Shown piece after piece: positions 4,500 to 63,690 of a stretch of DNA of 64,000 nucleotides; position 1 is the stretch's first letter, and the number at the start of each line of letters is the position of its first letter. The stretch lies in assembly GCA_018806985.1 (NCBI GenBank), contig JADANN010000203.1, forward strand, positions 1 to 64,000. Reading direction: 5' to 3'. The DNA comes from Angiostrongylus vasorum. Taxonomy: Eukaryota > Nematoda > Chromadorea > Rhabditida > Metastrongylidae. The notes under the pieces are model-generated. The model worked only from the letters and a program-made list of their open reading frames with translations, did no database searches and was not told the DNA's origin. Position numbers and translations under genes: made by a program.

Positions 4500-4690
4500 G
4501 AGTGTTGTCACTTTTTGTCTACTGCCTATGGCAGGGTGTTATGTGAAATTTAACCGCAGTGAATCTGAGATGTTTGCAATACTCCGATCGCAGGTGTTTG
4601 TTGCGGCGACCGAACCTCGTTATTACATTTTCTGGGGGCCAACGACTTCACCACCACACAATGCCGGTCTTTGTATCGTCTTTTCTCTCA
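4500..4690 (-). repeat. SINE-B copy (tRNA-derived)
   Basis: Read on the minus strand it has a tRNA-like head with an A-box-like TGTGTGGTGGTGAAG and a B-box-like GGTTCGGTCGCC, followed by a tail resembling the other SINE-B copies (16,750-17,000 and 63,476-63,690). The head recurs in reverse at 37,595-37,672, consistent with the inverted duplication. Confidence 0.5.
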
Positions 4691-4739
4691 CCCGTGTTTA
4701 ACCTATCGCTGCTATAACCGAGCACCTTTTGAATGTATT

Positions 4740-5770: not shown

Positions 5771-5774
5771 GTTA

Positions 5775-6990: not shown

Positions 6991-7003
6991 GGATCTCGGC
7001 CAC

Positions 7004-16425: not shown

Positions 16426-16469
16426 ATTTTATTACCACGGTTAAATAACCGGCGGTTTCAAAATTAATA

Positions 16470-16735
16470 TGTATTCTTTGTTTGTCGGTTTTGAAATATT
16501 TTCTGATCTTTGCTAGCTGATAATGATAGCAGCTTTTGCAGGATGGATTGTCCGGCAAAAGAAGTTGTCGTCACTGTACAATCGCTACTCTCAACAGCCA
16601 GCATCCTGTATAAAAGGGCATCGCTGGGTGAGTATGCATCATTCGAGATGCTCCTGCTCCACTGAGGAAGATCCGGCTCGATAAGAAGACGACCCTGTGC
16701 TGCTGATCTCCACAAAATAAAGTGGAGGGACTTGC
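16470..16735 (+). repeat. PLE terminal repeat, inverted relative to PLE-A
   Basis: It carries GATTGTCCGGCAAAAGAAGT, then TGTATAAAAGGGCATCGCTG, then ACTGAGGAAGATCCGGCTCG. The same unit lies in reverse at 63,700-63,994 after PLE-C, with few differences. Relative to the PLE-A reading direction it is inverted. Confidence 0.6.
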
Positions 16736-16749
16736 AAGGAACAAAATAG

Positions 16750-17000
16750 TAAGTATAACTTTTCGCTTCCTTCTTGTTGTTTTTTATAGCAGAGTATTAT
16801 GTAAAAGGATACCACAACCGCAAAGGTGTAATATACTCACAGTGATGCTGAGCTATTTACTGAACTCCGCAGCCCAGGTGTCTGCAGTGGAAATCGAACA
16901 CGCTATTTCCCCATCCAGGGCTAACGCGTTCACCACCACACCATGCGGGTCTTTCTTTTCGCCTTTCTCTCAGTCGTGTTTTATAAGTGGGTGCCAGTCG
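16750..17000 (-). repeat. SINE-B copy inside PLE-A
   Basis: The minus-strand head has A-box-like TGGTGTGGTGGTGAACGCG and B-box-like TGTTCGATTTCC, followed by a tail ending near TTTTTTATAGCAGAGTATTA (plus strand). It replaces the rest of the PLE-A reverse transcriptase exactly after the RLAP residues. The same junction occurs in PLE-C. Confidence 0.65.
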
Positions 17001-18190
17001 TTGTCCCATTGCCAACCCTCCAATTTGTGCGTAATACCTCCCGGACCATCTGAAGAATGAGCAGTTTAGGTACTTCTTTAAGAGTGTCGTCAACTGCTGA
17101 ATCGAGAAGCCGTACATGTTAGTTGCTCCTTCGTGTTGCTCAAGAAGCTCGCGGATGGCTTGCACTGCGGAGTCATGCGACACGTTAGTGTAAAGGGCGG
17201 TAACGTCGGACGACTCCATAACGCACGCGCTTTTGGGACGTGCGTTGCGCAGACGGTCTAGGAACATTTGGGTGTTCGCGAGATGGGCTGGTATGTGCTT
17301 AAGCAACTGGATGAATATTAGATTTGAAAGCCAAGCAATTCTATCTGTAAGCCCGTTTACACAACTGATGATGGGTCTAACTTTAAAGGTGGAAGGGTCG
17401 GTGGACGCCAGATCATCAGCGGATATTAACTTATGGGTCTTGATGAGTAAGTATAAGACGGGACATGTCGGCACTTCGATCTTAAGATGCGAAATGTCTG
17501 CTGGTTTTAAACCTGCTGCGCTTGCCATTTTAACCCATTCGTTGTTCACTTTTTCGATTTTGGACTTCTGAGTTACTTTTCAGTTGATGCGCGATAAAGA
17601 GATGCGTCTTCAAGATGTTTTTCCTATTTATCAACATCTAACTGGCCAGGAATTACTGCAAACTCTCCACCCTTATCACTAACTGATAGTCTAATACTCT
17701 TTGATTTTATTAGCTCTTGAACCTATCACATAGCAGATTTTTTGCGCAGCTGTAAGGTTCGAACTAAACTTTTTCGCGCGATAGTGGTCAAGGACTTTGA
17801 GAGTTTCGCTCGAAAATATACGAAATTTTATATCGACTTCGTCGTTTGGGTCTTGTTGTCTAAGGAATAACCGAGGAAATGGGGTGGTGGTAGTGCCCCC
17901 TACTTCTCGTTGTTCCTTTTGTCTCGTGTCTCAATTCTAACGTTGCTTCGGAGTCGATCTTGAAGTTCGCGCAGGCAGAAATTCTCTAGTTGGTGGACCA
18001 AGATTTGATATGAATTTTCTAACAGTGTGTGTGCCCTCACTGTACCAATACAGCGACCTAATTCTCCACTGGAATGCGGCCGTGGACAGATTTTTTGCGA
18101 TGGTGTCGCCTAAGAATACACCTTCTTTTACGGTTGATGGCAAAGGTTCAACAGGAGAGCTGCATTTTGTTGTTTTTGCTTGTAACTTAA
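17001..18190 (-). mobile_element. Penelope-like element, reverse transcriptase copy A (truncated)
   Basis: A continuous frame from 17,549 down to about 16,990 gives some 185 residues of PLE reverse transcriptase: CPVLYLLIKTHKL near the start, FKVRPIISCVNGLTDRIAWL, then motif A (SSDVTALYTNVSHDSA), then motif B (GLAMGQRLAP). The upstream part (17,580-18,190) is frameshifted but still shows the N-terminal LSVSDKGGEFAVIPGQLDV region and LSTAAFQWRIRSLYWYSEG. The YxDD catalytic box and GIY-YIG endonuclease are gone because a SINE-B follows motif B directly. It is therefore inactive. It differs from PLE-C by about four residues over this frame, so the duplication is recent. Confidence 0.85.
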
Positions 18191-19019
18191 TTGCAAATAT
18201 ACCCTTTTTTTAAATTCAAAAACAGCCACTGCTCTTATTCAAAGCGCTCGAAGTGAAAATCTAACCAACTAGTCAATAGTCATCACTTGCGCAATCACTA
18301 AATAGTAAATCTTCCTCCAATTACTCACAAGAAGTAGTACGACCTCAGCTGATTAGAGCACTGGTAGGGGAAAGAGCAACTTGAAATGGATTGTTATAGT
18401 TAAAACTAGGCCGTGAAGCATTTAAAGGTCAACAAATTACTCGATTGTTAAATTGGCACAAGGTTAGTAAAAAAAACGCTTACCTAGGCAAAGTCTCAAC
18501 GACTTCGTCTTCCTCAGAGCCGATGGTCACAGTCGATGTCGATGGTCCTCACGCGGTCGTCCGCGCAATGTGAGTATTCGTTGTTGCGTCGAGAAGAATC
18601 CAGTGGAGAGAGAACCCATCGAATGGACAACTTCACTTTGCAGTGCACGCTATAGAGAATGGATATGCATCTATTCTCTCCATCCAATAAGACTTGCTTT
18701 TTTAGTGGCATTTCGTCTTGCAGCAGTTGCTATTTCATTATGGGAGGTTTGCAGTGGTTCAGTGAAAAATAAGAAATTAAGAAAATGGCGACCAATTGGC
18801 CAATGCCAAGCTGAACAGAAAGTTGCTCTCGGAAATTCTTTTTCATGTCATGACCTATCGTCGTCAACGGAATAACTCTTATTTCTAGAGTTGTAAGCCT
18901 ATGATAGAAATTCTACGCAAAAACATCTGTGTTAAGCAAAGCGAGTGCTCGACTTTGCAAACTTACATGAAGAACGTAAGTGTAAATTAAGAAAAATACG
19001 TGTGCACTCACGACTTCTG

Positions 19020-21720
19020 CATTGTTGACTCTCCTGTATTAACATGCGCTTCGAAATTCTTAACACGGCCTACATATAATGAGAAAGTGGTTGGAGTTGT
19101 TGAGCGATCTAAGGAAGTAATTCTAGGCGGACCTCTTCTGATGAAAGAAAGGTAGTATAAGGCAGCTTGAACCCCCATGTCGACAACTACGTATTGGTGC
19201 AGGTTCTATAGCAGCTATTCCCAGAATAGTTTCTATTTTTCTTCTATATCTATTTCTATCTTTGTATGACTGTATGTTTCGGAAAATAAGTGTCATATCC
19301 GTTTTCTCAAGTTACATAGCAAATGTCGTAGAACGTAAATATCTTGATCCCATCCTAAGGAACTTTGATCGCTGTAAACAGTATTGTTATGCAAACCTAT
19401 TCTTAGAATCTGAACTTGTTGTTTGTTATTACTGTCCAAAAAGTTATCGTGCGTACAATAACAAGATGAGAATGAGGATGCTGGCGAGAGCAGTCGTCTG
19501 CCAGCTGACCATAGGATTTTGAGAGGATATGGAGAGGTAGCCGACGGATGTTTTCGGCAATGATGCTGGACCTGTGCCAAATACCGCCTTCTCCAGAAGC
19601 ATATAAATAGCTTCGTGAATTGTTATCTGGTTCGCTCCTGTCAGGGGCTCGTTCGCCTTCTAGACCCGTACCGTATTGATCTCGTGTGTCACCAATGTAG
19701 ATTATCGCAGTTGTTAAGTCATACTGCACATAGTCATTACTGTACATTGGACTCATCATATCATTATTGAATGACAGTTGCAGGTGTACGTTAACTTCGC
19801 ATCATCGTCACTGCGTCACGTTTCCCACCAGCTCAGTGTATCGTCATCATCATCCTGATCCTCATCCCTAGTGTCACTGTTCATTGTTTATCAATTGATC
19901 TACGGTGCGTTGTCAGTAGCGGCGGCTATCTAAAATGCGTTCTGTCTGCAACGCCATCGGTGGCATGTACCATTCCTCCCAGACGGTACGCCATGCGTAC
20001 AAAGGCCGCTGCCCTGCCAACTCGTGCTGTGTATGTGACAAGCCGCTATAGGCTTCTCATTTCTCAGTAGTTATCTTTCTGGACCACGATATTTTAGGCA
20101 ATGGTGGCACCCATCGATGCTCAAACTTCACGTTGCTTACATAGCGTTATCCACGACCAGCCGCCTGACTTTGTTCCGTAGATCACTCATCACTTACTGT
20201 CCTCATTGATCCACTAAAATGCACCTCATCACTATAATGTTGAAATCTTAGCTCAGCCGGAAATACGGCCCATCTGTATCCCTCTCACGCCTCAGCATAC
20301 AGTCTCTGCTTCCTCCGCCCTCAGCATACTGTCTACCTCAGCCGCCGCGCCAGACGCGGATAGACGCGACGCGGCATCGCTCACGGCTAACCAACGGTTA
20401 CTTCTTGGTAATTATTCATTATTACTGTTAATGTAATGGTGTTAGTACTTATTAATGGTATAGTAGTATTCGAATGCCATTATCTCGTTGTTAGCCTCAC
20501 TTCACTACTAGCCTTAGCACCTCATAGCTTTAACTCACGTCATTCCTCTACCATTACTTCTCCATCGTTACTATTATGTTATTAATGTTGTATTTCTGTA
20601 TTAAAGGTTTAATTACCCAAATCTGAGATATTGCTCTGTGGCAACTACTGAAAAGTCCCGCGTGGCGTCTTCTCACGAAGTCGAGCATTCTGCTAAAAGC
20701 TAGTGAATATTCGGTGCCGAGTACTGACTCGAAGGCCTATTTCCCACTAGCAGCTACAATAGGTTCACTCACATGAATAAAAAAAGAAAGCTGGGTATTT
20801 TTCATGCACATCTGGTGCACGGAACTTAGTAGGTATGTTATGGTTGTCAACTGAGAACTTGCTGTAACCTACTCAAACCACATGACATTCAAAGTTGACG
20901 ACTAGCAGGAAAAGTGGCAGTTGATAGTACTTATACTTCTTCAGAAAAGAACATCAAAACAGACTTCACTTCTTAAGCATGTGTGATGATGAGGAGGTCC
21001 CTTTGACAAGACACAACGACAAAACAATGATGGAACTTTCATTCAAGTCAACGTTGAAGAAAACGGATCACCACATCTGCCTTAAGCCTCACCAATGCAA
21101 CACTTCACAAGCAGAGTTATTCTGATGCGTAGAAAGCTCCTTATTCTTAGGTCCGTTGTATCAAAAAATGAAGGTTTGTCGCTGTTGAAAACGAATCAAT
21201 GTTAAGTTAGTGAAGGACTTTTTCCTTTTTGGTTCTTTCCTATCTGAAAGCTGTTGATAGATGCATTGTTAATTCTCCTTTATTAACACGAGCTTCAAAA
21301 TTCTTTAACACTGACTACATATAATGAAAAAATGGTTATAGTTGTTGAGCGATCTAAGGAAGTAATTCTAGGAGGACCTCTTCTGATGAAAGAAAAGAAG
21401 TATAAGGCATTAAAATTCCATGTCGACAACTACGTATTGCTGCAGCTCACTCAGATGCCTAAAAAACAAAGCTGAGTATTTTTTATGCACATTTGGTGCG
21501 CGGAACTTACTAGATTGTTATGGTTGCCAACTGGGAACTTGCTGTAACCTACCAATGGAACAATTCACAAGCAGAGTTATTCTGATGCGTAGAAAGCTCC
21601 TTATTTTTAGGTCCGTTGTATCAAAAATTGAAGGTTTGTCGCTGTTGAAAACGAATCAATGTTACGTTAGTGAACGATTTTTTCTCTTGCTTCTTTCCTA
21701 TCTGAAAGCTGTTAAATTAA
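19020..21720 (-). repeat. Tandem duplication inside repeat X copy A
   Basis: The unit at about 21,252-21,720 repeats the unit at about 19,020-21,247 (ignoring the insertion at 19,207-20,760). Both contain the ATAATGA(G/A)AAA(G/A)TGGTT segment, the GTCGACAACTACGTATTG segment and the GCAGAGTTATTCTGATGCGT segment. Copies B and C have this unit once. Confidence 0.7.
19207..20760 (+). mobile_element. LTR-like element E1, copy 2, with 6-bp target duplication
   Basis: A 1,554-bp element is flanked by AGGTTC at 19,201-19,206 and again at 20,761-20,766. Copy B of repeat X has the empty site with one AGGTTC at 55,307-55,312, so the boundaries are exact: it begins TATAGCAGCTATTCCCAG and ends CACTAGCAGCTACAAT. 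Its central part (about 19,900-20,625) matches the LTRs at 33,079-33,760 and 37,8xx-38,5xx. It has no coding frame. It may be a solo LTR with altered ends or a non-autonomous element; the ends do not show the usual TG...CA. Confidence 0.75.
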
Positions 21721-23975
21721 AACCTGTCTATTCTTCGAAAAATAAAGTTGGTCGAAATTTCGGTCCTCGGCGTTTCAAACACACCTTTGCTGCAATGTCG
21801 TTCAACATTTTTTTAACAGCGTACACTCATATTGATGATTATTAAGGTCGTCCATGAGACTTCATCTTAAAATTTGTTCGGTGGATGTGAACGATTTATG
21901 TGCTTCATTGTGATTGTAATCCACCGTTCATCAGTGGTGGGTAGGTGGTTCTAAAGCGAAGTTGATCCAAGGAGAAGAAGACAGCGCCAATCCGATGATT
22001 TCCTTTGTAATCCTTGCTATGGAGAATGTCACCCACTTGAAGCGAGAAATGGGTTTTAGTTAACTACAAAAACTGGTTTGCTGGCGTCATTTGCCAACTA
22101 ATTAAGAAAAGTACGAATGCTTTTAAAACTAAATCGTCACTGAATTTTTCAAAAATTTGAAGCTCACTTTGCACATTTCCGATCGCTCAAGAAAATTCCG
22201 GCGATAGAAATATGGAAACATTGGCATCATTGTAAGAAATATAGAAAAGTTTAAGGCTCAATTCCCACTCAGTGCAACACTACGGACCTGAACGGGGAGA
22301 ACACCTCAAGCAGCGTAAACCGCGAAAGGTGAGAATATTGGTAAAGCTCACGAACCTTTTTGAGAGCGCTTTTCAGGATTTTTCACTGACTAGACCGTTA
22401 GACAAAACACTTCCAAGCTGCATCGACTTGGTGGTTCTTTAGTCACTCGCACTTTTGATGGGGAGCTGTCTATGTGGAAACACAATACGATCCGCACAAA
22501 AGTGGCAGCCATTTAGTTGTCCACAGGAAGTCATTTAGTAGGCTTCTAGCAGTGAAACGGAATTACTTGTTTATGATGAAATCTCTATTGATGCAACCTT
22601 GGATACAATATTTTTAGAGCTTCGTCCACTTCTACAAGGAGAAATAATGACAAGCAGAATGAAACCTTTTTATGCTTTGCTAAATCGACTCAGTTTGTAC
22701 AATCATAGTCACCGGTCCTTGTTTCTCGTCGGAATGAGAGTTACTTCCTGTTCACAAGATAACAGAAAAATACCCATGGTTTCTGTGTCTTTTCCAGCTG
22801 TAGTTGTTACTTGATTTTAATGAGAATCCGAATTCGTATTTAATTCCGGTATGGTTTCATTCTATCAAAATGAAGAAGTTTTCAGGTCTCCAAGAGCGAT
22901 TTTTGTGCTTCCTAGTAATCCACATGAAATGACATCTTGGCACAATTAGCCCTCACAATCCTAGATAAATCAGTTTCGTAAAGCGGTAAAACTCCAGATA
23001 CACCTCTGAGGTTCTGCGCTTATAAAGTTTACTGGACATTCCGGCATGACAATAACGGTTTCGCAGTGAATTTCTGAAAATGCGAAATCTAGTTGGAAAA
23101 ACAAGAGAGGTACTTTTCAAAAATGAGTCTATCGGAATGCGACCATCTAAATTCTTCAATGATTGAAGCACTGGCAAACGTAGTGTTTCCCTTACATACC
23201 TTCAAATCTTATAACACCACGAAAGTGGACTACAAGTAAATGTGGATCTCCCTCTTAATTATTGCATAATCGTAAGATAAAATTCCACGGATTAACATGT
23301 CAGCAAACCAAAATCGGAAACTTCTATGAAGAGGGCAAAGAATTGGTGCACAGTTGTTTCTTGTTTCGACAGATATGAAGCTATAATCTGCGAGTGGACA
23401 ACATCCGGAGTGGTGAAATGGTGCACGCCAAAGGACACCGACAAAAGGACGACAACTGTCGATCAGTAAGCCGCTAGCACTTTTCGTCTCAACTAGTTTT
23501 GAACACTAGACTTCCTCAACAAGATTAATAGAAACTGGGAGCGAGCGACCATCTTAGAAAGCACAGCGAGGTGTAGTAGTGGGTCGGCGATGCTGGCCCT
23601 TTCCTATTTCCATCTACGTGAAGATGCTTCATCTTGTAGTGATGGAAGCATTCGAATAAGCAGTGGTAAAACAGAAATTTCCTGCTCAGTACTTAAAATA
23701 TGCTTACAAGAAAATCGATTTCTTTTCACTTTCATTTTTGCTAACCAGTTTCCTCAGCGAATGTGAAAAACAATTCATGAGAAACGAACCTGCTCGAAAT
23801 TATTAAACTGTTAGAAATTAAGAAGTAAAAAGCCTCCCAACGACCGTTTAACAACACGATGAAGACCGGGAACGGGACGTAGGGATAGTATAGGGTGGGG
23901 ATTGGGAAAACTGAAGGTGAAAGAAAACGTGGTCTTTTTTAAACGTCATCCGGTTGGTTCACGCTAGTAGACATG

Positions 23976-32508: not shown

Positions 32509-33858
32509 TATAGAGAACTTCTCTCTGGGAAAATTCTCTATCTTTCTAAACAATAGCATTTGATGTCCATATATGGCCGCCTCACAGTCGCACACCAAAC
32601 ACCGCAATGTAACTTCTATAACCTATTCAGTCAACTATGTTCAGTGTTTCAGGCACGGTAGCGATTTCAGGTTTGACTTCAGTAGCACACCAACAATGGC
32701 TTATCCGAACGAGGAGAAGTAACAGTGGAACAGTTTACTAGTTGCTTTGCGAAACAATGAAGCCAAAGAAGTTGATATTTGAGCCAGTTAGGTACAGTCT
32801 ACTGCAGTCCACGATCAACAATCCAGATTAACCGCGGATGCATACGCATGCGGCCCCCTGCAGCCAATATAAGCCAGGTGCCTTCGACGGCGGCGACATA
32901 CCACCACTCACCATACCCTCCGAGCGGTAACGCGGATAATCCGCTCCTCACAGCATCATTCCCTTGTCATCCTCAATCACCACAACTCATTCACAGTCAT
33001 ACTCACTCATTCTTATCCATTCACATTCATCTTTCAGTAATCAGAAGATTATTGTATCTAGTTTCTTAGCTTGTCTACGGCGCAATGTCAGTAGTGGCGG
33101 GTGTTTCCAAATGCGTTATGTTTGCAACGCCATCGGTGGCATGTACCATTCCTCCCGCATTGTACACCATGCGTACAACGCCGCTGAGCGGCCAACTTAT
33201 GCTGCGTATTCTGTTAAGCCGCTATAGGCTTATCAGTTTCCAGCCATTATCGTACTGGCCGTTGACTCTTAGGCAATGATGGCACTCATCGATGCTTCAC
33301 GTTGCTGACATAGCGTTATCCACGACCAGCCGCCTGACTGTGTTCCGTAGATGACTCATCACTTACTGTTCTCATTGATCCACTAAAATGCACCTCATCG
33401 CTATAGTGTTGAAATCTTAGCTCAGCCGAAAATACGACATGCCTATACCTCTCCGCCCCAGCATACTGTCTCCCTCAGCCGCCGCGCCGGCCGCGGATAG
33501 ACGCGACGCGGCATCGCTCACGGCTAACCAATGGTTACTTCTTGGTAATTATTCATTATTACTGTTAATGTAGTTGTGTTAATTACTTATTAATGCTATA
33601 GTAATATTTGAATGCCATTATCTCGTTGTTAGCCTCACTTCAGTACTAGCCTTAGCACCTCATAGCTTTAACTCACGTCATTCCTCTACCATTACTTCTC
33701 CATCGTTACTACTAGGTTGTTAATGTTATATTTATGTATTAAAGGTTTAGTTACCCAAGTGTGAGGCTGGTAGATCAATACATCAACCAAAAGACCCCCC
33801 GTGGCTTATATTCTACACAAACTGAACCGCTAGTAGCCGCCGCTGACTAGCCGTTACA
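32509..33858 (+). mobile_element. 1.35-kb LTR, plus orientation
   Basis: It matches the reverse complement of 37,746-39,098 almost exactly; an 87-residue frame at 32,964-33,227 is identical to one at 38,378-38,641. In the better-kept right copy the ends are TGTAGAGAAC...GCCGTTACA, the TG...CA of an LTR; here the left end has decayed to TATAGAGAAC. A possible polyadenylation region (TATTAAAGGTTTAGTTACCC, 33,735-33,760) precedes about 100 bp to the end. There is no gag or pol frame and no primer-binding site after GTTACA. It sits between a TTG microsatellite and RTE-1 leader sequence. A solo LTR is the best reading. Confidence 0.65.
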
Positions 33859-33864
33859 CGTACA

Positions 33865-34230
33865 TTGTAAGCACAGATTGCCACCTTAGCCCATCGGGAT
33901 CTAAACAGTGCAGAATGTCCGTGAGATAGCAGCCTCTCCGTACTCATCCTAGGCTTTTGGCCCAATTGACTCGTAAAATACAACCGGCATAATCTTGAAC
34001 GCACCCAAACACGCGTTTATGAACACGCCTCGTAAATTCAAACAGTATGTACCAAATCGGCGCAGAAGAAACAGGAAATCCATTCCCTGGATCCAACTGC
34101 GTCTCAGGGAAGCAAAGGTCGCCTTTGGTCTGCGGCTAAGTCCCTATCCGCCACTTGGGGACGGGCCACTTAGCCTGGCGACCAACTGGCGCGAGATCCC
34201 TCATTTGAGGGACCTCCGTTGTAATGATGA
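33865..34230 (-). repeat. RTE-1 leader and start of endonuclease region
   Basis: This is the minus-strand leader as at 7,004-7,370: CTGCGTCTCAGGGAAGCAAA and AGGGATCTCGCGCCAGTTGG (read on the minus strand for the latter). The LTR at 32,509-33,858 begins just where the endonuclease frame would start. Confidence 0.65.
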
Positions 34231-34429
34231 ATACAGTTGCGTATTAAAACTCATAGTAGAGCTACATAAACGGAAGTTTTCTTTTGAATTGCTGTTTGAT
34301 TATCGTCAAAGGTAGATCTTGGTTGTACTAAAATGCCTCCATATCGTAGTTTGTGTTGTGTTGCTTGCGATTATTCTTCATTACATATGGGAAAATCTAC
34401 GAAGCCATAAAATCGACGTGCTTGAAAAA

Positions 34430-34700
34430 TACCTTATCTGACGGTTTAATTAATATAAAATTCTGGAAGTTCTAGCAAAAATGTTCATGAGCTTCACGGA
34501 TTATCTCACTGGTCGTGGTTTACTCCTGCGACATCTCTCTTCTGAATTTTGTGGTACTCCATCGAGTGAGTAGGCAACAACAGATTCTTTTATATTTCTT
34601 ACAATAGTGCCAATGAGTCAGTGTTTCTGGTGCCCAAGTTGTCAGAAACTACCAAAACATGGACGTAAAATATGCTTGAAATCTAAAACAAATCTGTAGC
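34430..34700 (+). repeat. Fragment of repeat X
   Basis: It resembles the repeat X copy C segment at about 60,150-60,300, with TTATATTTCTTACAATAGTG and, earlier, a TCATGAGCTTCACGGATTAT-like segment. It is more diverged than copies A-C. Confidence 0.45.
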
Positions 34701-34774
34701 TTTCAAGATTAGAACCCGTTTCTACGTTTTCATGTATTTAGTTAATCAGTTGGATGGCCCTTCCTCACTCTCGT

Positions 34775-34990
34775 GAGTGCCACAGTTTGATTTTTTATTT
34801 GTTTTTCCTTGGCACAATCATCGTCCTTGGTGGTGGTCTGCTTCTAACATCGCAACGTCAGCTGGGCCCATTCCTTAATCATGAAATCGTTACCATTTGC
34901 AAGTACAAATGTTTGACGTTAGCCACGCACACGTCCGCCACTTCTTGGATGGTCTTCTAAGAGGACGCTTCCACTTTTTTTGAATTCTCT
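34775..34990 (-). mobile_element. RTE-2 LINE, C-terminal end fragment
   Basis: A minus-strand frame reads KRPLRRPSKKW, like the KRPLGRPPTRW box near the C-terminus of RTE proteins. The rest is frameshifted. A better copy of the same region is at 52,780-53,010. 34,991-35,345 shows nothing I can assign. Confidence 0.5.
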
Positions 34991-35345
34991 CCTACTTTCT
35001 TCGTCGATCTGTTACCTGTTTTTCTTATTATGTGACCGACCTTGCGTTTCGCTATTGATGTGTATTTCCATGGAACCTGAAGACAGAATAGGTCCCGAAG
35101 ATTCGAGATAGCAACACGTTGTGAGTACAAGTTATATTTCAGATGACATTTTTAAGCACTCTGAGGCTGGCACGCAGCCCACGTCTCTGTTGCGAAACAG
35201 AGTGGTGGTAGTTTTGAATCGAAAAGACAGGCATGGAGTCTTAAGTTCGTTATCTGGTCAGCGACTTTCGGGAGAAACAAATGTGGCCCTTGCTGCTCTC
35301 TTTCTTTTTATTTTATTCTCTATCCATCTCGCCCTCCATGTTCAA

Positions 35346-36480
35346 TAAATGCCAAAGGTACACATATGAAGTTTTTTCTGTGAAAGGAGAGCCATCCTGT
35401 TCGATTTGTACGTCATCACCTTCTGTGTTCTTGATGAACTGAATCTCCACTGTTTCTTTGCGCTGTCTAACTTTCTTCTCGCTTCATTGTTCACTGGGTG
35501 TCGCTTCTGTTTCACTGGTAGAAAACGTGACGATTTCATTCGCGAAAAGAAGACTTGATAGAAATTTTCCATCAGCGCATATGCCTTTTCTCGTCCTAAT
35601 TGAGTTACTTCTTTATCCACTGTAGTGCATCAATAAACAGCTTTCTCTAAAGTGTGTGACATTGTAGAATCCCATTTTTATTGGGTGAGACTCAGGAGTC
35701 AATGAAAAGCTGTACTTTTTGTGGAACATTTCCGATAACGGGCGCTTAGAGTTCTTGTACGGAAACGACTCATTCTTTGTTCGACGTATGCTGATAGGAT
35801 CGCATTCGCTTTCGGCGTAGTCAAACCTTTCTCGTATTCGATAAAGGTTAAGACAAAATGCAGATAGCATTCCCGACTTACTCCATGACCCACGGGCTTG
35901 GACGTCATTCATGCAACAGAATCTCTACCGGAATCCTGCTTGCTGAACTAGCTGCGTCTCACCCAAGGTTTTCTATATGAGCAAAGAACAATCATCGTGA
36001 ATAGCTCGTAAACTACACTAAACAAGCAGATCGGACAACAGTTAAGAAGATTTCTTTGACCATCCCTTCTAAGGCAGGATTATCTTACGTGATGTCATCC
36101 GCTAGTCGAGGATTTTCTGTTTGTAACGGCATGATGTTATGCAGGTTGCGACAACTACCCTTTATTTGTTGCCTCCAGTTCTATGGAAGTCGGCGGTGAT
36201 TTATCGATCCCTAGAGCTTTGCCTTCTTCATGTTTGTTATTGCAACCTTTTATGTCAGAAGCCCGGTAAGTTTTTTCATCAGAGGTAGTTCCGGGGTACC
36301 CTATCGGGGATTATGGGACAAAAAAAGATTGGTGTATAACATTTTCGCTATCAATTCCATATCATGGCAGGTTGCAATGATAGTCCCTGCCTAGTTCAAC
36401 AGCGCAGATTGAAGAACATTATAGCTACAAATATTTCGACGACACTTCTTCAAATTGGATTGTTTTTGAACTGCATCCAA
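35346..36480 (-). mobile_element. RTE-2 LINE fragment (inverted partner of 5,775-6,990)
   Basis: Minus-strand frames read ANAILSAYVEQRMSRFRTRT (35,8xx), then LMENFYQVFFSRMKSSRFLP (35,5xx), matching the 6,397-6,760 frames of the left copy. The same point mutations and stops are largely shared, so both copies come from one dead ancestor by segmental duplication, not by two retrotransposition events. Confidence 0.65.
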
Positions 36481-37590
36481 TCATTTTTTCCTGCCTAACA
36501 CTTTCCATAACCTGTCTCCCTGCAGATAGCCGAGCGACTCGTGCTGGCGCCAGTATATCTTCCATTTTCACTTGTACCGTGCAACTGTAGCCCAAAGGGT
36601 TCTGCTCGCTCTAGAAAACTCGCTGTCTATCGCACTTCTTCCAGCGTTTTCTTGGAGAATTCTTACCACCGAGTCGGTGGTCTTTCCGCATCATGTTTGG
36701 CAACCCGAGAAATCCAGTTACTAACGGCCCTTGTCCATCGGTTTTCGTTTACACGCATTACGTGTCCGATCCAACTTTAGCAGCTCGGCGTATAGACCTC
36801 CGTTCTTAGTTCTTGATCACTGACGTAGGTCCGAGATTCGGATTCCTTCCATTACTCGTGTGGCACGGGATAGTCCTAGCACGGCCCTTTTAATTGCGCA
36901 TTGCACAACAATCAGTGGTCTTTCACACCGCTTACGCATCGACCAGGTTTGCGATATATATGTTAAGGTCGAAAGAATCGTGGATGCTGAAAAGGTGGGC
37001 GTGAAGTCAGGTGTTCTTTGTTCTCTTCATTACATCCAATAACCGATTCGTTCCTCATAAAAATCGTTTTGTGAGATTTAGCCGAAAGCCAATCTTTCCA
37101 CAGGCTTTGTCAAAAGTCGGCAAGCATACGTTCCGCTTGGCTAATGTTTGGTGTCATAAGGACGATGTCATTAGCAAAGCGAAGATGGTGTAAATGTTGT
37201 CTATCGAATTTCACTCCCATATTATCTCATTCCAAATTTCGCCTGACGTTTTGGGTGGCGGTAAATAATTTTGGCGAGATGGCATCGCCCTTCGCAACCC
37301 TTCCTTTCACGTCGATGTTAACGTCATTGTAGAATGGTGATATTTTGGTGGCAAAATTTTTTATATTGTCAGCGAAGAAATCTAATATACTGGGTATGGA
37401 CGTCGTGACAGTCCAGGCCTCCCTAGGATTTTTGTCCCAACTAAGACAAAAGCACTCCCTTTAAATCAATGAAAATGAAGCAAAGCGTGCTCTTGTACTC
37501 TCGCGATACAATGAGTCTTGTCATCATTTAGAAAATCCACATTCACAAAGGTGCTCGGTTATAGCAACGATAGGTTAAACACGGGTGAGA
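36481..37590 (-). mobile_element. RTE-1 LINE fragment (inverted partner of 4,740-5,770)
   Basis: This is the C-terminal part of the RTE-1 reverse transcriptase on the minus strand, in the same order and with the same join to RTE-2 as at 4,740-6,990. It includes the region encoding the KYHHF.../INIDVKGRVAKGD-like block near 37,310-37,270 and the C-terminal CVNENRWTRAV-like block near 36,750. Stops and frameshifts throughout. Confidence 0.65.
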
Positions 37591-37594
37591 GAAA

Positions 37595-37672
37595 GACGAT
37601 ACAGAGGACAGCGTTGGTGTGGTGGGGAAGGCGTTGGCCTCCAGAAAGTGTAATAACGAGGTTTGTAATATG
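37595..37672 (+). repeat. SINE-B head fragment
   Basis: GTTGGTGTGGTGGGGAAGGC followed by GTGTAATAACGAGGTT matches the SINE-B copy at 4,500-4,690 in reverse. It breaks off inside the B box, exactly where tRNA-Gly sequence starts. Confidence 0.5.
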
Positions 37673-37743
37673 TTCATTGGCCTAGAATCGAACCCGGATC
37701 GCCCGCGTGGCAGCCGAGCATTCTACCACTGAACCACCAATGC
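37673..37743 (-). tRNA. tRNA-Gly(GCC)-like sequence, probably a pseudogene
   Basis: On the minus strand a 71-nt tRNA-like sequence starts GCATTGGTGGTTCAGTGGTA, has anticodon loop CTGCCAC (GCC, glycine) and T-loop TTCGATT, and ends CCAATGAA. The first pair (G1-A72) and one T-stem pair are mismatched, and no CCA is encoded. Its 5' end is 2 bp from the terminus of the LTR at 37,746. It interrupts a SINE-B at the B box, so it is not in an ancestral position. Confidence 0.6.
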
Positions 37744-37745
37744 CA

Positions 37746-39098
37746 TGTAACGGCTAGTTAGCGGCGGCTACTAGCGGTTCAGTTTGTGTAGAATATAAGC
37801 CACGAGGGGTCTTTTGGTTGATGTATTGATCTACCAGCCTCACACTTAGGGTAACTAAACCTTTAATACATAAATATAACATTAACAACCTAGTAGTAAC
37901 GATGGAGAAGTAATGGTAGAGGAATGACGTGAGTTAAAGCTATGAGGTGCTAAGGCTAGTACTGAAGTGAGGCTAACAACGAGATAATGGCATTCAAATA
38001 TTACTATAGCATTAATAAGTAATTAACACAACTACATTAACAGTAATAATGAATAATTACCAAGAAGTAACCATTGGTTAGCCGTGAGCGATGCCGCGTC
38101 GCGTCTATCCGCGGCCGGCGCGGCGGCTGAGGGAGACAGTATGCTGGGGCGGAGAGGTATAGGCAGGTCGTATTTTCGGCTGAGCTAAGATTTCAACATT
38201 ATAGCGATGAAGTGCATTTTAGCGGATCAATAAGGACGGTAAGTGATGAGTCATCTACGGAACACAGTCAGGCGGCTGGTCGTGGATAACGCTATGTCAG
38301 CAACGTGAAGCATCGATGAGTGCCACCATTGCCTAAGAGTCAACGGCCAGTACGATAATGGCTGGAAACTGATAAGCCTATAGCGGCTTAACAGAATACG
38401 CAGCATAAGTTGGCCGCTCAGCGGCGTTGTACGCATGGTGTACAATGCGGGAGGAATGGTACATGCCACCGATGGCGTTGCAAACATAACGCATTTGGAA
38501 ACACCCGCCACTACTGACATTGCGCCGTAGACAAGCTAAGAAACTAGATACAATAATCTTCTGATTACTGAAAGATGAATGTGAATGAATAAGAATGAGT
38601 GAGTATGACTGTGAATGAGTTGTGGTGATTGAGGATGACAAGGAATGATGCTGTGAGGAGCGGATTATCCGCGTTACCGCTCGGGGGGTATGGTGAGTGA
38701 TGGTATGTCGCCGCCGTCGAAGGCACCTGGCTTATATTGGCTGCAGGGGGCCGCATGCGTATGCAACCGCGGTTAATCTGGATTGTTGATCGTGGACTGC
38801 AGTAGACTGTACCTAACTGGCTCAAATATCAACTTCTTTGGCTTCATTGTTTCGCAAAGCAAAGTAGTAAACTGTTTCCACTGTTACTCCTCCTCCTTCG
38901 GATAAGCCATTGTTGGTGTGCTACTGAAGTCAAACCTGAATCGCTACCGTGCCTGAAACACTCAAATATAATTGACCGAGTAGATTATAGAAAGTTACAT
39001 TGCGGTGTTTGATGTGCGACTGTGACGCGGCCATATATGGACATCAAATGTTATTGTTTAGAAAGATAGAGAACTTTTCCAGATAGAAGTTCTCTACA
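37746..39098 (-). mobile_element. 1.35-kb LTR, minus orientation
   Basis: Read on the minus strand it runs TGTAGAGAACTTCTATCTGG...AACTAGCCGTTACA, with canonical TG and CA ends and a length of 1,353 bp. It is nearly identical to 32,509-33,858 but inverted to it. No internal retroelement genes lie beside it and no matching target duplication is seen (CTGAC on one side, CCA on the other). After its CA end come TG and then tRNA-Gly sequence in sense orientation. Confidence 0.7.
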
Positions 39099-54020: not shown

Positions 54021-54044
54021 TCGACATTCATAATGACAAAAAAT

Positions 54045-54340
54045 TCACGAGTTGGTGGACCAAGATTTGATGGGGATTTTCTAGCAGTGTGTATGTGCCT
54101 TTACCGTACCAATACTGCGACTTAATTCTCCACTGGAATGCGGCCGTGGACAGATTTGTTGAGATGGTGATGCTTTGGAGGACAACTTCTTTTACGAAGA
54201 GTGGCGAAGCTTCGATAGAAAAGCTGCATTTTGTTGTTCCTGTTTGTAAATTAATAAAACTTTTTCTCTGAGTTAAAGGTGATGTCAGTTTTCTGCGCAA
54301 TCCAAGGATCGATTGCAAATATAAAGTCTATTTAAATTCA
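54045..54340 (-). mobile_element. PLE copy B, N-terminal fragment
   Basis: A minus-strand frame reads NLSTAAFQWRIKSQYWYGKG, matching NLSTAAFQWRIRSLYWYSEG of PLE-A. The reverse transcriptase core is absent; the copy is cut at about 54,045 beside a SINE-A. Confidence 0.65.
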
Positions 54341-57300
54341 AAAAGTAGCCACTGCTTCTTTTTCAAAGCGCTCGAAGTGAAAATCTAACCAACTAGTCAA
54401 TAGTCATCACTTGCACAATCACTAAATAGTAAATCTTCCTCCAATTACTCACAAGAAGTAGTACGACCTCAGCTGATTAGAGCACTGGTAGGGAAAGAAC
54501 AACTTGAATGGGACTGCTATAGTTAAAACTAGGCCGTGAAGCATTTAAAGGGCAACAAATTACTCGACTGTTAAATTGGCGCAAGGCTAATAAAAAAAAG
54601 GTTTACTTGGCCAACGACTTCGTCCTCCTCAGAGCCGATGGTCCCTAGTCGATGGTCCTCAGGTGGTTGTGCTTGCAATGTGAGTTTTCGCTGTTGCATC
54701 GAGAAGAATCCAGTGGAGAGAGAACCGATCGAATGGGCAATTTCACTCTGCAGTGCCCCCGATAGAGGATGGATGTTCATCTATTCTCTCCATGCAACAC
54801 GACTTTCTTTTATAGCGGCATTTCGTCTTGTAGCAGTTGCTATTTCATTATCTGAGGTTTGCAGTGGTTCATTCAAAAATGAAAAATTAAGCAAAAGGCG
54901 GCTAATTGATCAATGGCGAGCTGAACAGAAACTCGCTCTCGGAAATTCTTTTTCATGTCATGCCCTATCGTCGTCAACGGAATATCTCTTAGATCTAGAG
55001 TTTTAAGCCTATGACACAAAGTTCTACGCCAAAATATCTGTGTTGAGCAAAAGGGAGTGCGTGAATTTGCGAACTTTCACGAAGGACATAAGAATAAATT
55101 AAGAAAAATTGCACCTACGCATTCACGATTGCTTACTCTCCTGTATAACATGCGCTTCGAAATTCTTAACATGGCCTACATATAATGAGAAAGTGGTCGG
55201 AGTTGCTGAGCGAGCTAAGGAAGTAATTCTAGACGTCTCTCTTCTGATGAAAGAAAGGTAGTATAAGGCAGATTGAAACCCCATGTCGACAACTACTTGG
55301 TGGTGCAGGTTCACTCAGATGCCCAAAAAAAGAAAGCTGGGTATTTTTTCATGCACATTTGGTGCACGGAACTTACTAGATTGTTATGGTTGTCAACTGA
55401 GAACTTGCTGTAACCTACTCAAATCACATGACATTCAAGAGGACGACTAACAGGAAAAGTGGCAGTTGATAATACTTATACTTCTTCGAAAAGAACATCA
55501 AAACAGCCTTACTTCTTAAGCATGTGTGATGATGAGGAGGTCCCTCTTTGACAAAGACGCAACGACAAAACAATGATAGAATTCATTCAAGTCAATGTTG
55601 AAGAAAACGGATCACTACATCTGCCTAAAGCCTCACCAATGCAACACTTCACAAGCAGAGTTATTCCGATGCGTAGAAAGCTCCTTATTCTTAGGTCCGT
55701 TGTATCAAAAAAATGAAGGGTTTGCCGCTGCTTGAATATGAATCAATGTTAGGTTAGTGAAGGATTTTTTCTTTTGGTTCTTTCCTAGCTGAAAGCTGTT
55801 AAATTGAGACCTGTCTATTCCTCGAAAAATAATATAGTTGGTCGAAATTTCGGTCCTCGGCGTTTCAAACAAACCTTTACTGCAATGTCGTTCAACATTT
55901 TTTTAACAGCGTACAGTCATATTGATGATTATTCAGGGCGTCCATGAGACTTCATCTTAAAATTTGTTCGGTGGATGTGAGCGATCTACATGCGTCATTG
56001 TGAGTGTAATCCAGCGTTCAGCAGTGGTAGGGTAAGTGGTTCTAAAGCGAAGTTGATCCAAGGTGAAGAACACAGCGCCAATCCAGTGATGTCCTTTGTA
56101 ATCAGTGCTATCGAGAATGTCTCTCACGTGATGCTAAAAATAGGTTTTAGTTAACTACAAAAACTGGTTTTGTGGGGTCTTTTGCCGATTAATCAGGAAA
56201 AATATGAATGCTTTTTAAAACTAAGTCGTCACGGAATTTTCAAAAAATTCGAAGCTGACTTTACACATTTCCGATCGTCAAGAAATTTGCGCAACGGAAA
56301 AATATGAACTCACTGACAGCATTGTAAGAAATATAGAGAAGTTTGTGGCTCAATCCCCACTTGGTGCAACACCGCGGACCTGAATTTTGAGAGCGCTTTC
56401 AGGATTTTCCATTGGCTAGGCCGTGAGTTAAAACCTTTTCAAGAACATCGACTTGGTGGTTCTTCAGTTGCTCACACTTTTGATGGGAGTTCTCTATATG
56501 GAACACAATACAAATCCGAGTGGCAGTCATTTAGTTGTCCAAAGGAAGTCGTTTAGTAAGCTTCTAGCAGTGGAGCAGAATTGTTTGTTTATGATGAAAT
56601 CTCTATTGATGCAACCTTGGATAAAATGTTTTTAGAGGCTCGTCTACTCCCGCAAGGAGAAATAATGACAACGAGAATGAATCTTTCTTACGGCTTCCTA
56701 AATCGACTCACTTGTACAATCACAATCACTTGTCCTTATTGCTCATCGGAATGAGAGTTACTTCCTGTTCACAAGATAACAGAAAAGTACCCACGGTTCC
56801 TGTGCCTTTTCGAACTGTGGTTATTATTTGATTTTAATAAGAACCTGAATACGTATTTAATTCCACTATATTTTCATTGCATCAAAATGAGAAGGTTTTC
56901 AGGTCTCCAAGAGCCAATTTCTTTGTGCTTCCTAGTAATCCACATGAAATGACATCTTGGTAAAATTAGCCCTCACAATCCTAGATAAATCAGTTTCGTA
57001 AAAGCGGTAAAACTCCAGATACACCTCCGAGGTTCTGCGCTTATAAAGTTTAGAGGACATTCTGGAATGGCAACAACGGTTTTGCAGTGAATTTCTGAAA
57101 ATGCGAAATCTAGTTAGAACAACAAGAAAGGTACTTTTCGAAAAACGAGTCTATCGGAAAGCGACCATTTTGGTTCTTCAATGAATGAAGCATTGGCAAA
57201 CGTAGTGTTTCCTCTTGCATACCTTCAAATCTTCATGTAATACCAAAAATGTCTACTACAGGTAAATTTGGATTTCCGTCTTCGCTATTGCATAATTGTA

Positions 57301-57990
57301 AATTAAGATTAAGCATTTATATTGAGTCAGCGGGATTGAGGGGCACCTGCGGTCCTGAGTTTTGCAAATATCTCAGCATCATTGTAGTTATATTTCGCAT
57401 TATACCCTGGCATTAAAAAATAGTACGCAGTGAATAAAAACGGGAAACATTGAGAAATAAAGCTGTAATCTGCGCGGAGATTACATCCGGACTGGTGAAA
57501 TGGCGCACACCAAAGGACACCGACAAAAGGACGACAACTGTCCATCAGTAAGCGTTAGCACTTTCCGTCTTAACTAGTTTTGAACACTAGACTCCCTCAA
57601 CAAGAATAACGGAAACTAGGGGACTAGCGACCATCTTAGAAGCACAGCGAGGAGTAATGGGATTCGGCAATGCTGGCCCTTCCTATTTCCATCTACGTGA
57701 AGATGCTTGATCTCGTAGTGATGGAAGCATTCGAATAAGCATGGGGTGAAACAGAAATTTCCTGTTCAATACTTAAAATAATGTGGAAAACAATTCATGA
57801 GAAACGGACCTGCTCGAAATTATTAAACTGTTAGAAATTAAGGAGTAAAAAACCTTTCAACGACTGTTTAACAACACGATAGACCGGGAACGGGACGGAG
57901 GGGGATAGTATAGGGTGGGGATTGGGAAAACTGAAGGTGAAAAAAAAGACTTGGTCTTTTTTTAAACGTCATCCGGTTTGTTCACGCTTG
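54341..57990 (-). repeat. Repeat X, copy B
   Basis: Same orientation as copy A, inverted to copy C. It lacks the 1,554-bp insertion and the tandem duplication of copy A and so gives the ancestral arrangement. The empty insertion site is at 55,307-55,312. A SINE-B tail sits at 57,330-57,450. Confidence 0.7.
57330..57450 (+). repeat. SINE-B tail fragment
   Basis: GAGTTTTGCAAATATCTCAG then CATTATACCCTGGCATTAAA match the tail of the SINE-B copy at 15,826-15,998. The tRNA-like head is missing. Confidence 0.5.
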
Positions 57991-58034
57991 TAGATATAAA
58001 CAGCAATAACAGGTTCTATCGTTTTTCATTTATT

Positions 58035-58246: not shown

Positions 58247-58390
58247 TGTAACGGCTCACAGCACAAGAGTATGAAGAGCGTTCGAGGGAGCGAATAATAG
58301 TGGAGAGCCGTTTGTAAAAGCACCGCAAACTTGGGTAATTAAACTTTTATTTGCGTATACATACTATTTACATAAGAATGCAATGAGGTT
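58247..58390 (-). mobile_element. LTR end of a related family (minus)
   Basis: On the minus strand it ends GCTGTGAGCCGTTACA, like the CCGTTACA end of the 1.35-kb LTR, and upstream it has AATAAAAGTTTAATTACCCA, a poly(A)-signal-like site followed by the conserved TTACCCAAGTTTG. The rest of the LTR is missing. Confidence 0.55.
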
Positions 58391-58470
58391 ATGCACAACA
58401 AACTACAAATAAGGTGGTTCAGTGGGTTTCTTATGCACAACAAACTACAAATAAGTGGTTCAATAGGTTT
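58383..58470. repeat. Two tandem units of about 45 bp
   Basis: TTATGCACAACAAACTACAA occurs twice, each followed by a GGTTCA(G/A)T(G/A)GGTTT-like sequence. Confidence 0.7.
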
Positions 58471-58502
58471 TTTTTTCTAATAAAATGCCTTAACAATAAT
58501 GC

Positions 58503-58600
58503 ATGCACCAATGTAACGGCTCACAGCACAAGAGTACGAAGAGCGTCCGAGGGAGCGAATATTAGTGGAGAGCCGTTTGTAAAGTACCTGTGAACGAGGA
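58503..58600 (-). mobile_element. LTR end with primer-binding-site-like sequence (minus)
   Basis: On the minus strand the U5-like end ...GCTGTGAGCCGTTACA (to 58,512) is followed by one T and then TGGTGCAT (58,510-58,503). That is the complement of the last eight nucleotides of tRNA-Gly with CCA, the position and form of a retroelement primer-binding site. The internal region beyond is not recognisable. Confidence 0.5.
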
Positions 58601-58688
58601 AAGCATCGAACTCATGTCAACACGTGTGCGAAAGTCAACGATAACATTAACGTAATAACAATGCAAGAGCTAGCGATAACAATTCCTA

Positions 58689-58875
58689 CTCACGTCATTC
58701 CTCTGCCATTACTTCTCCATCCTTACTATTATGTTATTAATGTTGTATTTATGTATTAGGCGGTTTGATTACCCAAGTTTGAGGCTGGTAGATCAATACA
58801 CCAACTGAAAGACCCGCGTGGCTAATATTCTACACAAACTGAACCACTAGTAGCAGCCGCAAACTAGTCGTTACA
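58689..58875 (+). mobile_element. LTR terminal segment (R-U5-like) fused to tRNA-Gly
   Basis: 187 bp from CTCACGTCATTCCTCTGCC to AACTAGTCGTTACA match the last 187 bp of the LTR at 33,672-33,858. Its CA end touches the CCA complement of the tRNA-Gly sequence with no gap. The abrupt start would fit the transcription start of the element (start of R). Confidence 0.7.
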
Positions 58876-58949
58876 TGGTGCATTGGCCGGGAATCGAACC
58901 CAGGTCCCCCGCGTGGCAGGCGAGCGTTCTACCACTGAACCACCAACTC
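58876..58949 (-). tRNA. tRNA-Gly(GCC) sequence with encoded CCA, likely a retrocopy
   Basis: On the minus strand GAGTTGGTGGTTCAGTGGTA leads into anticodon loop CTGCCAC (GCC) and a fully paired T arm with TTCGATT, ending CCAATGC-A-CCA: 71 nt plus CCA. The acceptor stem has one A-G mismatch at pair 2-71. A chromosomal CCA is not expected in a eukaryotic tRNA gene, so this is best read as a DNA copy of a mature tRNA. A true gene with chance CCA downstream is the alternative. The A and B boxes are intact, so it could still be transcribed. Confidence 0.75.
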
Positions 58950-62289: not shown

Positions 62290-63475
62290 CAAAATGCAGC
62301 TCTTCTGTTGAGCCTTTGCCATCAACCGTAAAAGAAGGTGTATTCTTAGGCGACACCATCGCAAAAAATCTGTCCACGGCCGCATTCCAGTGGAGAATTA
62401 GGGTCGCTGTATTGGTACAGTGAGGGCACGCACACTGTTAGAAAATTCATATCAAATCTTGGTCCACCAACTAGAGAATTTCTGCCTGCGCGAACTTCAA
62501 GATCGACTCCGAAGCAACGTTAGAATTGAGACACGAGACAAAAAGGAACAACGAGAAGTAGGGGGCACTACCACGACCCCATTTCCTCGGTTATTCCTTA
62601 GACAACAAGACCCAAACGACGAAGTCGATATAAAATTTCGTATATTTTCGAGCGAAACTCTCAAAGTCCTTGACCACTATCGCGCGAAAAAGTTTAGTTC
62701 GAACCTTACAGCTGCGCAAAAATCTGCTATGTGACAGGTTCAAGAGCTAATAAAATCAAAGAGTATTAGACTATCAGTTAGTGATAAGGGTGGAGAGTTT
62801 GCAGTAATTCCTGGCCAGTTAGATGTTGATGAAATAGGAAAAACATCTTGAAGACGCATCTCTTTATCGCGCATCAACTGAAAAGTAACTCAGAAGTCAA
62901 AATCGAAAAGTGAACAACGAATGGGTTAAAATGGCAAGCGCAGCAAGTTTAAAACCAGCAGACATTTCGCATCTTAAGATCGAAGTGCCGACATGTCCCG
63001 TCTTATACTTACTCATCAAGACCCATAAGTTAATATCCGCTGATGATCTGGCGTCCACCGACCCTTCCACCTTTAAAGTTAGACCCATCATCAGTTGTGT
63101 AAACGGGCTTACAGATAGAATTGCTTGGCTTTCAAATCTAATATTCATCCAGTTGCTTAAGCACATACCAGCTCATCTCGCGAACACCCAAATGTTCCTA
63201 GACCATCTGCGCAACGCACGTCCCAAAAGCGCGTGCGTTATGGAGTCGTCCGACGTTACCGCCCTTTACACTAACGTGTCGCATGACTCCGCAGTGCAAG
63301 CCATCCGCGAGCTTCTTGAGCAACACGAAGGAGCAACTAACATGTACGGCTTCTCGATTCAGCAGTTGACGACACTCTTAAAGAAGTACCTAAACTGCTC
63401 AATCTTCAGATGGTCCGGGAGGTATTACTCACAAATTGGAGGGTTGGCAATGGGACAACGACTGGCACCCACTTA
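62290..63475 (+). mobile_element. Penelope-like element, reverse transcriptase copy C (truncated)
   Basis: The N-terminal part (62,290-62,900) shows NLSTAAFQWRIR and LSVSDKGGEFAVIPGQLDV with frameshifts. A continuous frame from 62,910 gives VPTCPVLYLLIKTHKL, FKVRPIISCVNGLTDRIAWL, motif A (SSDVTALYTNVSHDSA) and motif B (GLAMGQRLAP). After that the frame runs into SINE-B sequence, so the YxDD box and endonuclease are absent. It is nearly identical to PLE-A, including the SINE junction, and cannot be active. Confidence 0.85.
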
Positions 63476-63690
63476 TAAAACACGACTGAGAGAAAGGCGA
63501 AAAGAAAGACCCGCATGGTGTGGTGGTGAACGCGTTAGCCCTGGATGGGGAAATAGCGTGTTCGATTTCCACTGCAGACACCTGGGCTGCGGAGTTCAGT
63601 AAATAGCTCAGCATCACTGTAAGTATATTACACCTTTGCGGTTGTGGTTTCCTTTTACATAATACTCTGCTATAAAAAAACAACAAGAAG
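63476..63690 (+). repeat. SINE-B copy inside PLE-C
   Basis: Head TGGTGTGGTGGTGAACGCGT with B-box-like TGTTCGATTTCC, then the tail to CTCTGCTATAAAAAAACAAC. It joins the PLE at the same residue as in PLE-A. The last 45 or so residues of the long frame starting at 62,910 are SINE translation. Confidence 0.7.

Follow-up and report, generated by a model that had tools for sequence, protein, structure and literature searches.

The genome of Angiostrongylus vasorum (280 Mb) carries at least 24 junctions, about 21 of them independent, where the end of a long terminal repeat (LTR) of group A, B or C is joined to an antisense copy of tRNA-Gly(GCC). Palindromic relatives of these fusions exist besides the antisense junctions, and one of them lies inside the analysed stretch of 64,000 nucleotides (the window), at 32509–39096. 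The fusions are very probably the result of primer read-through past tRNA position 58 in plus-strand strong-stop synthesis, followed by a template jump and then by integration.

At 58689–58946 of the window, the LTR end GTTACA passes without a gap into TGG and an antisense copy of tRNA-Gly(GCC). The original prediction of an LTR end fused to antisense tRNA-Gly(GCC) with CCA was borne out by alignment and by both ARAGORN (58876–58949) and Rfam (RF00005, 55.6 bits), which called a tRNA here. The same prediction counted all 71 nt of the tRNA; the CCA end and the body as far as base 4 were recovered, but bases 1–3 were not. The copy, with TGG from 58876 and then T ahead of the tRNA body, comprises 71 of the 74 nt of mature tRNA-Gly(GCC)-CCA (identity 68/71) and ends at tRNA base 4; the alignment gave no match for G1-C2-A3 in 58876–58946. 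The locus 58247–58949 is composed as follows:

58247–58510, minus strand: small LTR-B element, inverted, consisting of the 3' LTR-B end (GTTACA at 58247) and a short internal part; the same blocks occur in L067/L079, L066/L078 and L065/L077
58512–58688, minus strand: inverted LTR-B end, cut off at 58688, with LTR-A from there on; 58584–58675 is 89–93% identical to LTR-B of L065, L067, L069, L077, L079 and L080
58689–58875, plus strand: last 187 bp of LTR-A, ending in GTTACA (matches to other LTR copies)
58876–58946, plus strand: DNA copy of tRNA-Gly(GCC), with TGG (the complement of CCA) and then tRNA bases 71 to 4 as the reverse complement (ARAGORN, Rfam, alignment)

The LTR-A part is 87–88% identical to the LTR-copy ends at 33671–33867 (plus strand) and 37934–37737 (minus strand) of the window. 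The small element of family B extends over 58247–58583; its PBS, TGGTGCAT, occupies 58503–58510 and is separated from the inverted LTR-B end by a one-base spacer at 58511, and the LTR-B of L078 also matches part of 58512–58688. Since 58512–58688 is inverted LTR-B and 58247–58583 a small B element, the locus is an A/B mosaic (inverted B, A U5, tRNA), and base 58689 is the joint of LTR-A with inverted LTR-B, not a free end. A search of the window for a second terminus of the fusion did not reveal a repeat of GATCA, which lies to the left of 58247, beside an LTR terminus, the only hit being one poor match at 42013. The surroundings contain copies of one large repeat (16458–23974, 54041–57997 and 64000–59087), two of which are inverted around the 58689 locus; this repeat has RT-like open frames at 16857–17579 and 62889–63602, with no Pfam match, and a Penelope-like origin is a guess.

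The locus had been taken for an integrated minus-strand strong-stop duplex. Integrated minus-strand strong-stop DNA (tRNA-U5-R), with an R end at 58689 that jumped onto LTR-B, agrees with the restriction of the LTR next to the tRNA to its final 187 bp and with the window break being a single joint with LTR-B; for this locus alone, such a jump is possible. As an account of the fusions it is improbable: at least 10 of the 24 junctions contain the whole LTR from its first bases, U3 included, as judged by the start motif and in L061 also by alignment, other break points vary (L043 breaks at −135, L056a at a few dozen bases, L056b at about −970), and the 273-bp short LTRs do not have the LTR-A stretch around 58689. 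The presence of whole LTRs in so many junctions points to plus-strand strong-stop DNA as the usual precursor. A break at the LTR position of 58689 was absent from every other fused copy read; a second break in L049 had been considered as support for 58689 as the start of R, and the L049 piece aligns elsewhere (at about 1063), so there is no recurrence. The A/B joint itself may go back to a minus-strand strong-stop jump onto LTR-B, to a plus-strand DNA jump or to a rearrangement at a later time.

Genome-wide searches with the LTR-specific joints, which are kept in fusions and PBS copies alike (GTTACA-TGG in A, GTTACA-T-TGG in B), indicated how frequent the fusions are. The family A joint GTTACATGGTGCATTGG, with at most one mismatch, occurs at 33 sites (control 0), all of which were read: 13 are antisense tRNA fusions, two are sense tRNA fusions, 17 are element-internal PBS copies and one is unrelated. 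Continuation into internal sequence at those 17 sites reveals a tRNA-complementary PBS after the 5' LTR of family A; since 15 of the 33 PBS-type junctions are tRNA fusions, fusion is no rare accident in this family. In family B, where the joint has a one-base spacer, 172 LTR–PBS sites were found with up to two mismatches (control 1), nine of them with an antisense tRNA fusion, and group C is represented by two joints on contig C286 (L070, L086). Flanks or whole segments are common to three pairs (L043/L061, L084/L085 and L070/L086), and the 24 junctions were therefore reduced to about 21 independent ones; L056a and L056b are two junctions within one insertion. The tRNA copies were taken from 100 of 149 places, and further junctions may exist. 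The original view of the tRNA as the reverse-transcription primer, copied with its post-transcriptional CCA and joined to U5 at the PBS, was right, and the pattern recurs throughout the genome. L043 carries the flank that it shares with L061 a second time, in inverted orientation on the opposite side (about 3 kb, 93–98% identity).

A gag open reading frame of family A (L058:1505–2446, minus strand) contains DUF1759 (Pfam E-value 3.7e-13) and is closest to a protein of Angiostrongylus costaricensis (72% identity, covering 75% of the query). DUF1759 in gag is a mark of BEL/Pao elements, and because of it family A was taken as a putative BEL/Pao-type LTR retrotransposon; for family B, LTRs and short internal pieces were read. 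LTR-A copies differ in length but have both ends in common: there is a long form (1405 bp in L009), a short one (273 bp in L052) and a very short one (101 bp in L050), the long form having about 1.1 kb extra in the middle. In L028 (contig C434, about 46.3 kb), an LTR-A end is followed by about 10 nt of PBS and then by GCCGTTACA, a short circuit from the PBS to the U5 end without a tRNA body.

The possibility that LTR elements merely landed beside tRNA genes, or that tRNA retropseudogenes made by LINEs lie beside LTRs, was weighed against the structure of the joints. Dispersed TGG-tRNA copies without a recognisable LTR do exist: one is L042, and five more are distributed over four loci (L068, L071, L072, L073), their neighbouring sequence being assigned to no LTR. 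The original prediction had named the same tRNA with CCA and no LTR as evidence against itself, and these four loci partly provide it, elsewhere in the genome. L073 (contig C467:1719200–1719900) contains a pair of tRNA-Gly copies, each with CCA, in facing orientation and separated by about 75 nt of non-LTR sequence. Nevertheless, a chance association of neighbours is highly improbable, as the CCA, the fixed PBS joint in families A and B and the zero control matches all oppose it, and the 5-bp target duplications at L050, L077, L078, L080 and L056 surround LTR termini, not the tRNA. In a chance test, the 30-mer TTACATGGTGCATTGGCCGGGAATCGAACC gave 12 matches with up to three mismatches in the 280-Mb genome and none in the backwards control, which excludes a chance origin of these matches.

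Contig C86 contains, at about 423–452 kb (L074 being 452000–452500), a large tandem array with a unit of about 235 bp and one tRNA-Gly(GCC) gene per unit; it holds 83 of the 100 tRNA-copy places listed (149 in all), with the same reading. The one unit tested has the exact 71-nt body, followed by GCG after the discriminator base. Since the C86 genes encode GCG where the fusions carry CCA, the template was the mature tRNA. Copying ended at tRNA bases 1–5 in 16 of the 23 junctions counted (L045 was left out as ambiguous), at bases 7–10 in four (L003, L048, L077, L070) and at bases 25–26 in three (L043/L061 and L056b, two events). The first group includes L049, L050, L056a, L082 and L083, which end at base 1 and do not continue into the leader that precedes G1 in the C86 genes, and ten more ending at bases 2–5 (the window, L047, L059, L062, L078, L079, L080, L081, L084/L085 as one, and L086). 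Position 26 is a known modification site; stops there from two events prove nothing about an effect of modification. Position 58 is covered by all 21 scored copies, with no mismatch, which may be a weak sign of a primer without the stop modification; a count of 0/21 also fits the mean mismatch rate of 3.7%. For the repeated CCACCA ends, trimming in the manner of integrase after the CA at the end of the tRNA was considered and rejected, since L047 did not show the duplication that it predicts.

Fused copies arose many times. In a tree of 33 LTR ends, including ten fused ones, a single clade of fused copies was rejected (AU test, p = 2.5e-7), and at least eight changes are required, three of them forced by starred branches; the tree is based on 187 columns, is poorly resolved in detail, with 17 of its 25 inner branches open, and was made after four fused and seven PBS rows had been dropped as too short. 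It is thus very unlikely that one ancestral fusion spread as a SINE- or TRIM-like family, a reading to which the three pairs with common flanks or segments lend something, as do L050 and L080, in which the tRNA lies between two LTRs and which might, in principle, be mobile again; the rejected clade speaks against it, and so do the differences in LTR families, tRNA end points and post-tRNA sequences, with 21 different joints. Among the copies compared, neither a single spreading clade nor a common tail after the tRNA-U5 unit, as in SINE2 elements, was found. The suggested link to SINEs did not stand, as no tRNA-headed family with a LINE-like tail was seen spreading.

The genome search for LTR-end/tRNA-Gly fusions with the TGG joint, which the original prediction had proposed, led to 24 junctions read; at five loci, the LTR termini of an insertion that encloses the tRNA are flanked by exact 5-bp target duplications:

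L050: 101-bp LTR, tRNA, 3' internal piece, 100-bp LTR; duplication ATCTT
L077: 688-bp LTR-B, 66 nt of tRNA, 29 nt identical to its own U5 end (the minimal product); duplication GTAAG
L078: U3 through to inverted U3; duplication ATTAG
L080: LTR-B, tRNA, internal sequence, LTR-B; duplication GGTAA
L056: insertion of 1360 bp that holds two tRNA copies and is bounded on one side by an inverted U5 end and on the other by an inverted U3 end; duplication ACACC

Because LTR termini and exact 5-bp duplications bound these insertions, they were placed by integrase. L055 has an inexact duplication (4/5, ACTGT/ACTAT), and none was found for L003; for the remaining fused loci, including the one at 58689, a second terminus was not found in the sequence searched. 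The sequences beyond the tRNA differ: L049 and L080 continue into internal sequence (for L049, judged by its similarity to the L052 reading frame), the jump of L050 lies at a shared GC ahead of the pol end, and that of L003 lies where CTGAACC is common to tRNA and U5.

Normal plus-strand strong-stop DNA consists of U3-R-U5 and the first ~18 nt of the primer; copying stops at tRNA position 58, and the product pairs with the PBS. LTR retrotransposons A (with BEL/Pao-type gag) and related B would prime with tRNA-Gly(GCC), and in the fused copies the reverse transcriptase would have copied on to, or near to, the tRNA 5' end. Such an overlong 3' end would not pair properly with the PBS, would be unusable there and would jump elsewhere, to be extended on another template. 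The targets of the jump would be internal sequence (L049, L050, L078, L080), the U5 end (L003, L077) or, via the tRNA acceptor stem, the strand's own PBS, giving inverted LTR-tRNA-LTR dimers (L045, L046 and 32509–39096 of the window). Products that regained two LTR termini would be inserted by integrase with 5-bp duplications, and 58689–58946 would be such a junction, with LTR-B cDNA joined on the left. Missing methylation at position 58, the order of strand transfers and co-packaging of A and B would be parts of this scheme that we infer.

The palindromes offer a check of the pairing. The 3' end CCAATGC would fold back on GCATTGG at the PBS and be extended, which would give LTR-TGGT-GCATTGG-TGGTTCAG on one strand; the predicted TGGT-GCATTGG-TGGTTCAG is exact in L055 and has two mismatches in L046. 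Two pairing checks, on a palindrome and on the minimal LTR-tRNA-U5 product, agree closely with the model. Overall, palindrome arms are 97.9–98.1% identical; in L046 the identity is 97.9% for the LTR and 98.0% for a further 866 bp beyond it. The joint of L045 is CACCA/TGGTG, and its right arm is 99.8% identical to L009 versus 98.1% to its own left arm, therefore two templates may have been involved and a snap-back of one molecule is not established there. The palindrome of the window has the following parts:

32509–33858, plus strand: left arm, a complete LTR-A (TATAGAG...GTTACA), by sequence comparison
33859–33867, plus strand: remnant of the PBS/tRNA 3' end, CGTACATTG, with CATTG that recurs at 37675 (sequence)
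33868–37674, no strand assigned: later transposable element inside the copied tRNA, with the 5-bp repeat CATTG on either side; a related copy lies at 4613–7366
37675–37743, plus strand: remaining part of the copied tRNA-Gly (minus-strand tRNA), then CA (ARAGORN, Rfam, sequence)
37746–39096, minus strand: right arm, an inverted LTR-A with 97.85% identity to the left arm in pairwise alignment

This is an inverted LTR-tRNA-LTR dimer of the same design as L046. The second of the two tRNAs predicted in the window, at 37672–37743, is located here, at the end of another LTR-A copy. The arms are more similar to each other than to any of the 11 other LTRs compared (at most 93.1%), and no target duplication was found around 32509–39096. 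A DNA transposon with terminal inverted repeats was ruled out for this segment once its tRNA joint, its LTR/PBS surroundings and the CATTG-flanked inserted element were recognised. Palindromes are also a known read artefact, and chimeric or fold-back reads in the assembly could have produced them; the arms differ by about 2%, one palindrome contains a later insertion and the joints recur on separate contigs, so that the probability of an artefact is close to nil.

Products of this kind resemble the 'P1' read-through product of HIV-1, a full copy of unmodified tRNA-Lys3 seen in vitro and in TRMT6-mutant cells; copying of unmodified tRNA runs through to the 5' end, which m1A58 normally prevents, and only shorter products support transfer (PMC13191261). 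In both cases the primer tRNA is copied to the 5' end without the position-58 stop and the product is unusable for normal second-strand transfer, but here, unlike P1, the copies are integrated in a genome, belong to nematode-type LTR elements, contain tRNA-Gly and often follow a further template jump. Helenus and TRIMp3, described in Kojima 2024 (PMC10886601), are likewise small LTR elements with tRNA-like sequence, 4–5 bp duplications and reliance on other elements. The tRNA of Helenus, however, lies within the LTR in promoter orientation and was proposed to derive from SINE insertion (PMC10886601), whereas the tRNA here comes from the primer, lies in antisense orientation at the PBS after the LTR end and has CCA; the Helenus / TRIMp3 feature of tRNA-like sequence inside the LTRs is absent from the fusions. 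Chimeras of tRNA and LINE-1 also combine a tRNA with a retroelement insertion from one reverse-transcription event; they have half-length tRNAs and 9–19 bp duplications (PMC13174262), in contrast to the LTR elements, the 49–74 nt from the CCA end and the 5-bp duplications observed here.

Like BEL/Pao LTR retrotransposons, the present elements have a family-A gag with DUF1759 and 5-bp duplications; ordinary BEL/Pao-type copies have a PBS of 11–14 nt, and the fused copies up to 74 nt of tRNA. The strong-stop/primer-tRNA model for the origin of SINEs, put forward in the 1990s reportedly by Ohshima, Okada and colleagues, joins the primer tRNA to R-U5; in contrast to that model, U3 is present in most of the whole junctions here, and none was seen to have given rise to a SINE family. 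A literature search through titles and abstract openings, with subscription papers mostly outside its range, revealed no account of a whole primer tRNA within integrated LTR elements.

The position-58 stop on the tRNA is treated as essential for the replication of LTR elements. Whole-primer copying, otherwise known from HIV experiments, is found here repeatedly as integrated fossils, and the loci are a genomic record of the failed stop, including the sites where the enzyme stopped on the tRNA and those to which the misplaced end jumped. Speculatively, and rather doubtfully, the primer tRNA-Gly(GCC) may be poorly methylated at position 58 in this lineage, so that whole-primer copying would be frequent; the elements would tolerate it through microhomology or acceptor-stem snap-back, and some two-LTR tRNA products (e.g., L050 and L080) would be new mobile elements scattering tRNA-gene-like sequences and palindromic LTR pairs. 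Integrase still accepts products with a copied-in primer tRNA, and the process is a source of CCA-bearing tRNA-like sequences and LTR palindromes, which annotation would call tRNA genes or unrelated repeats.
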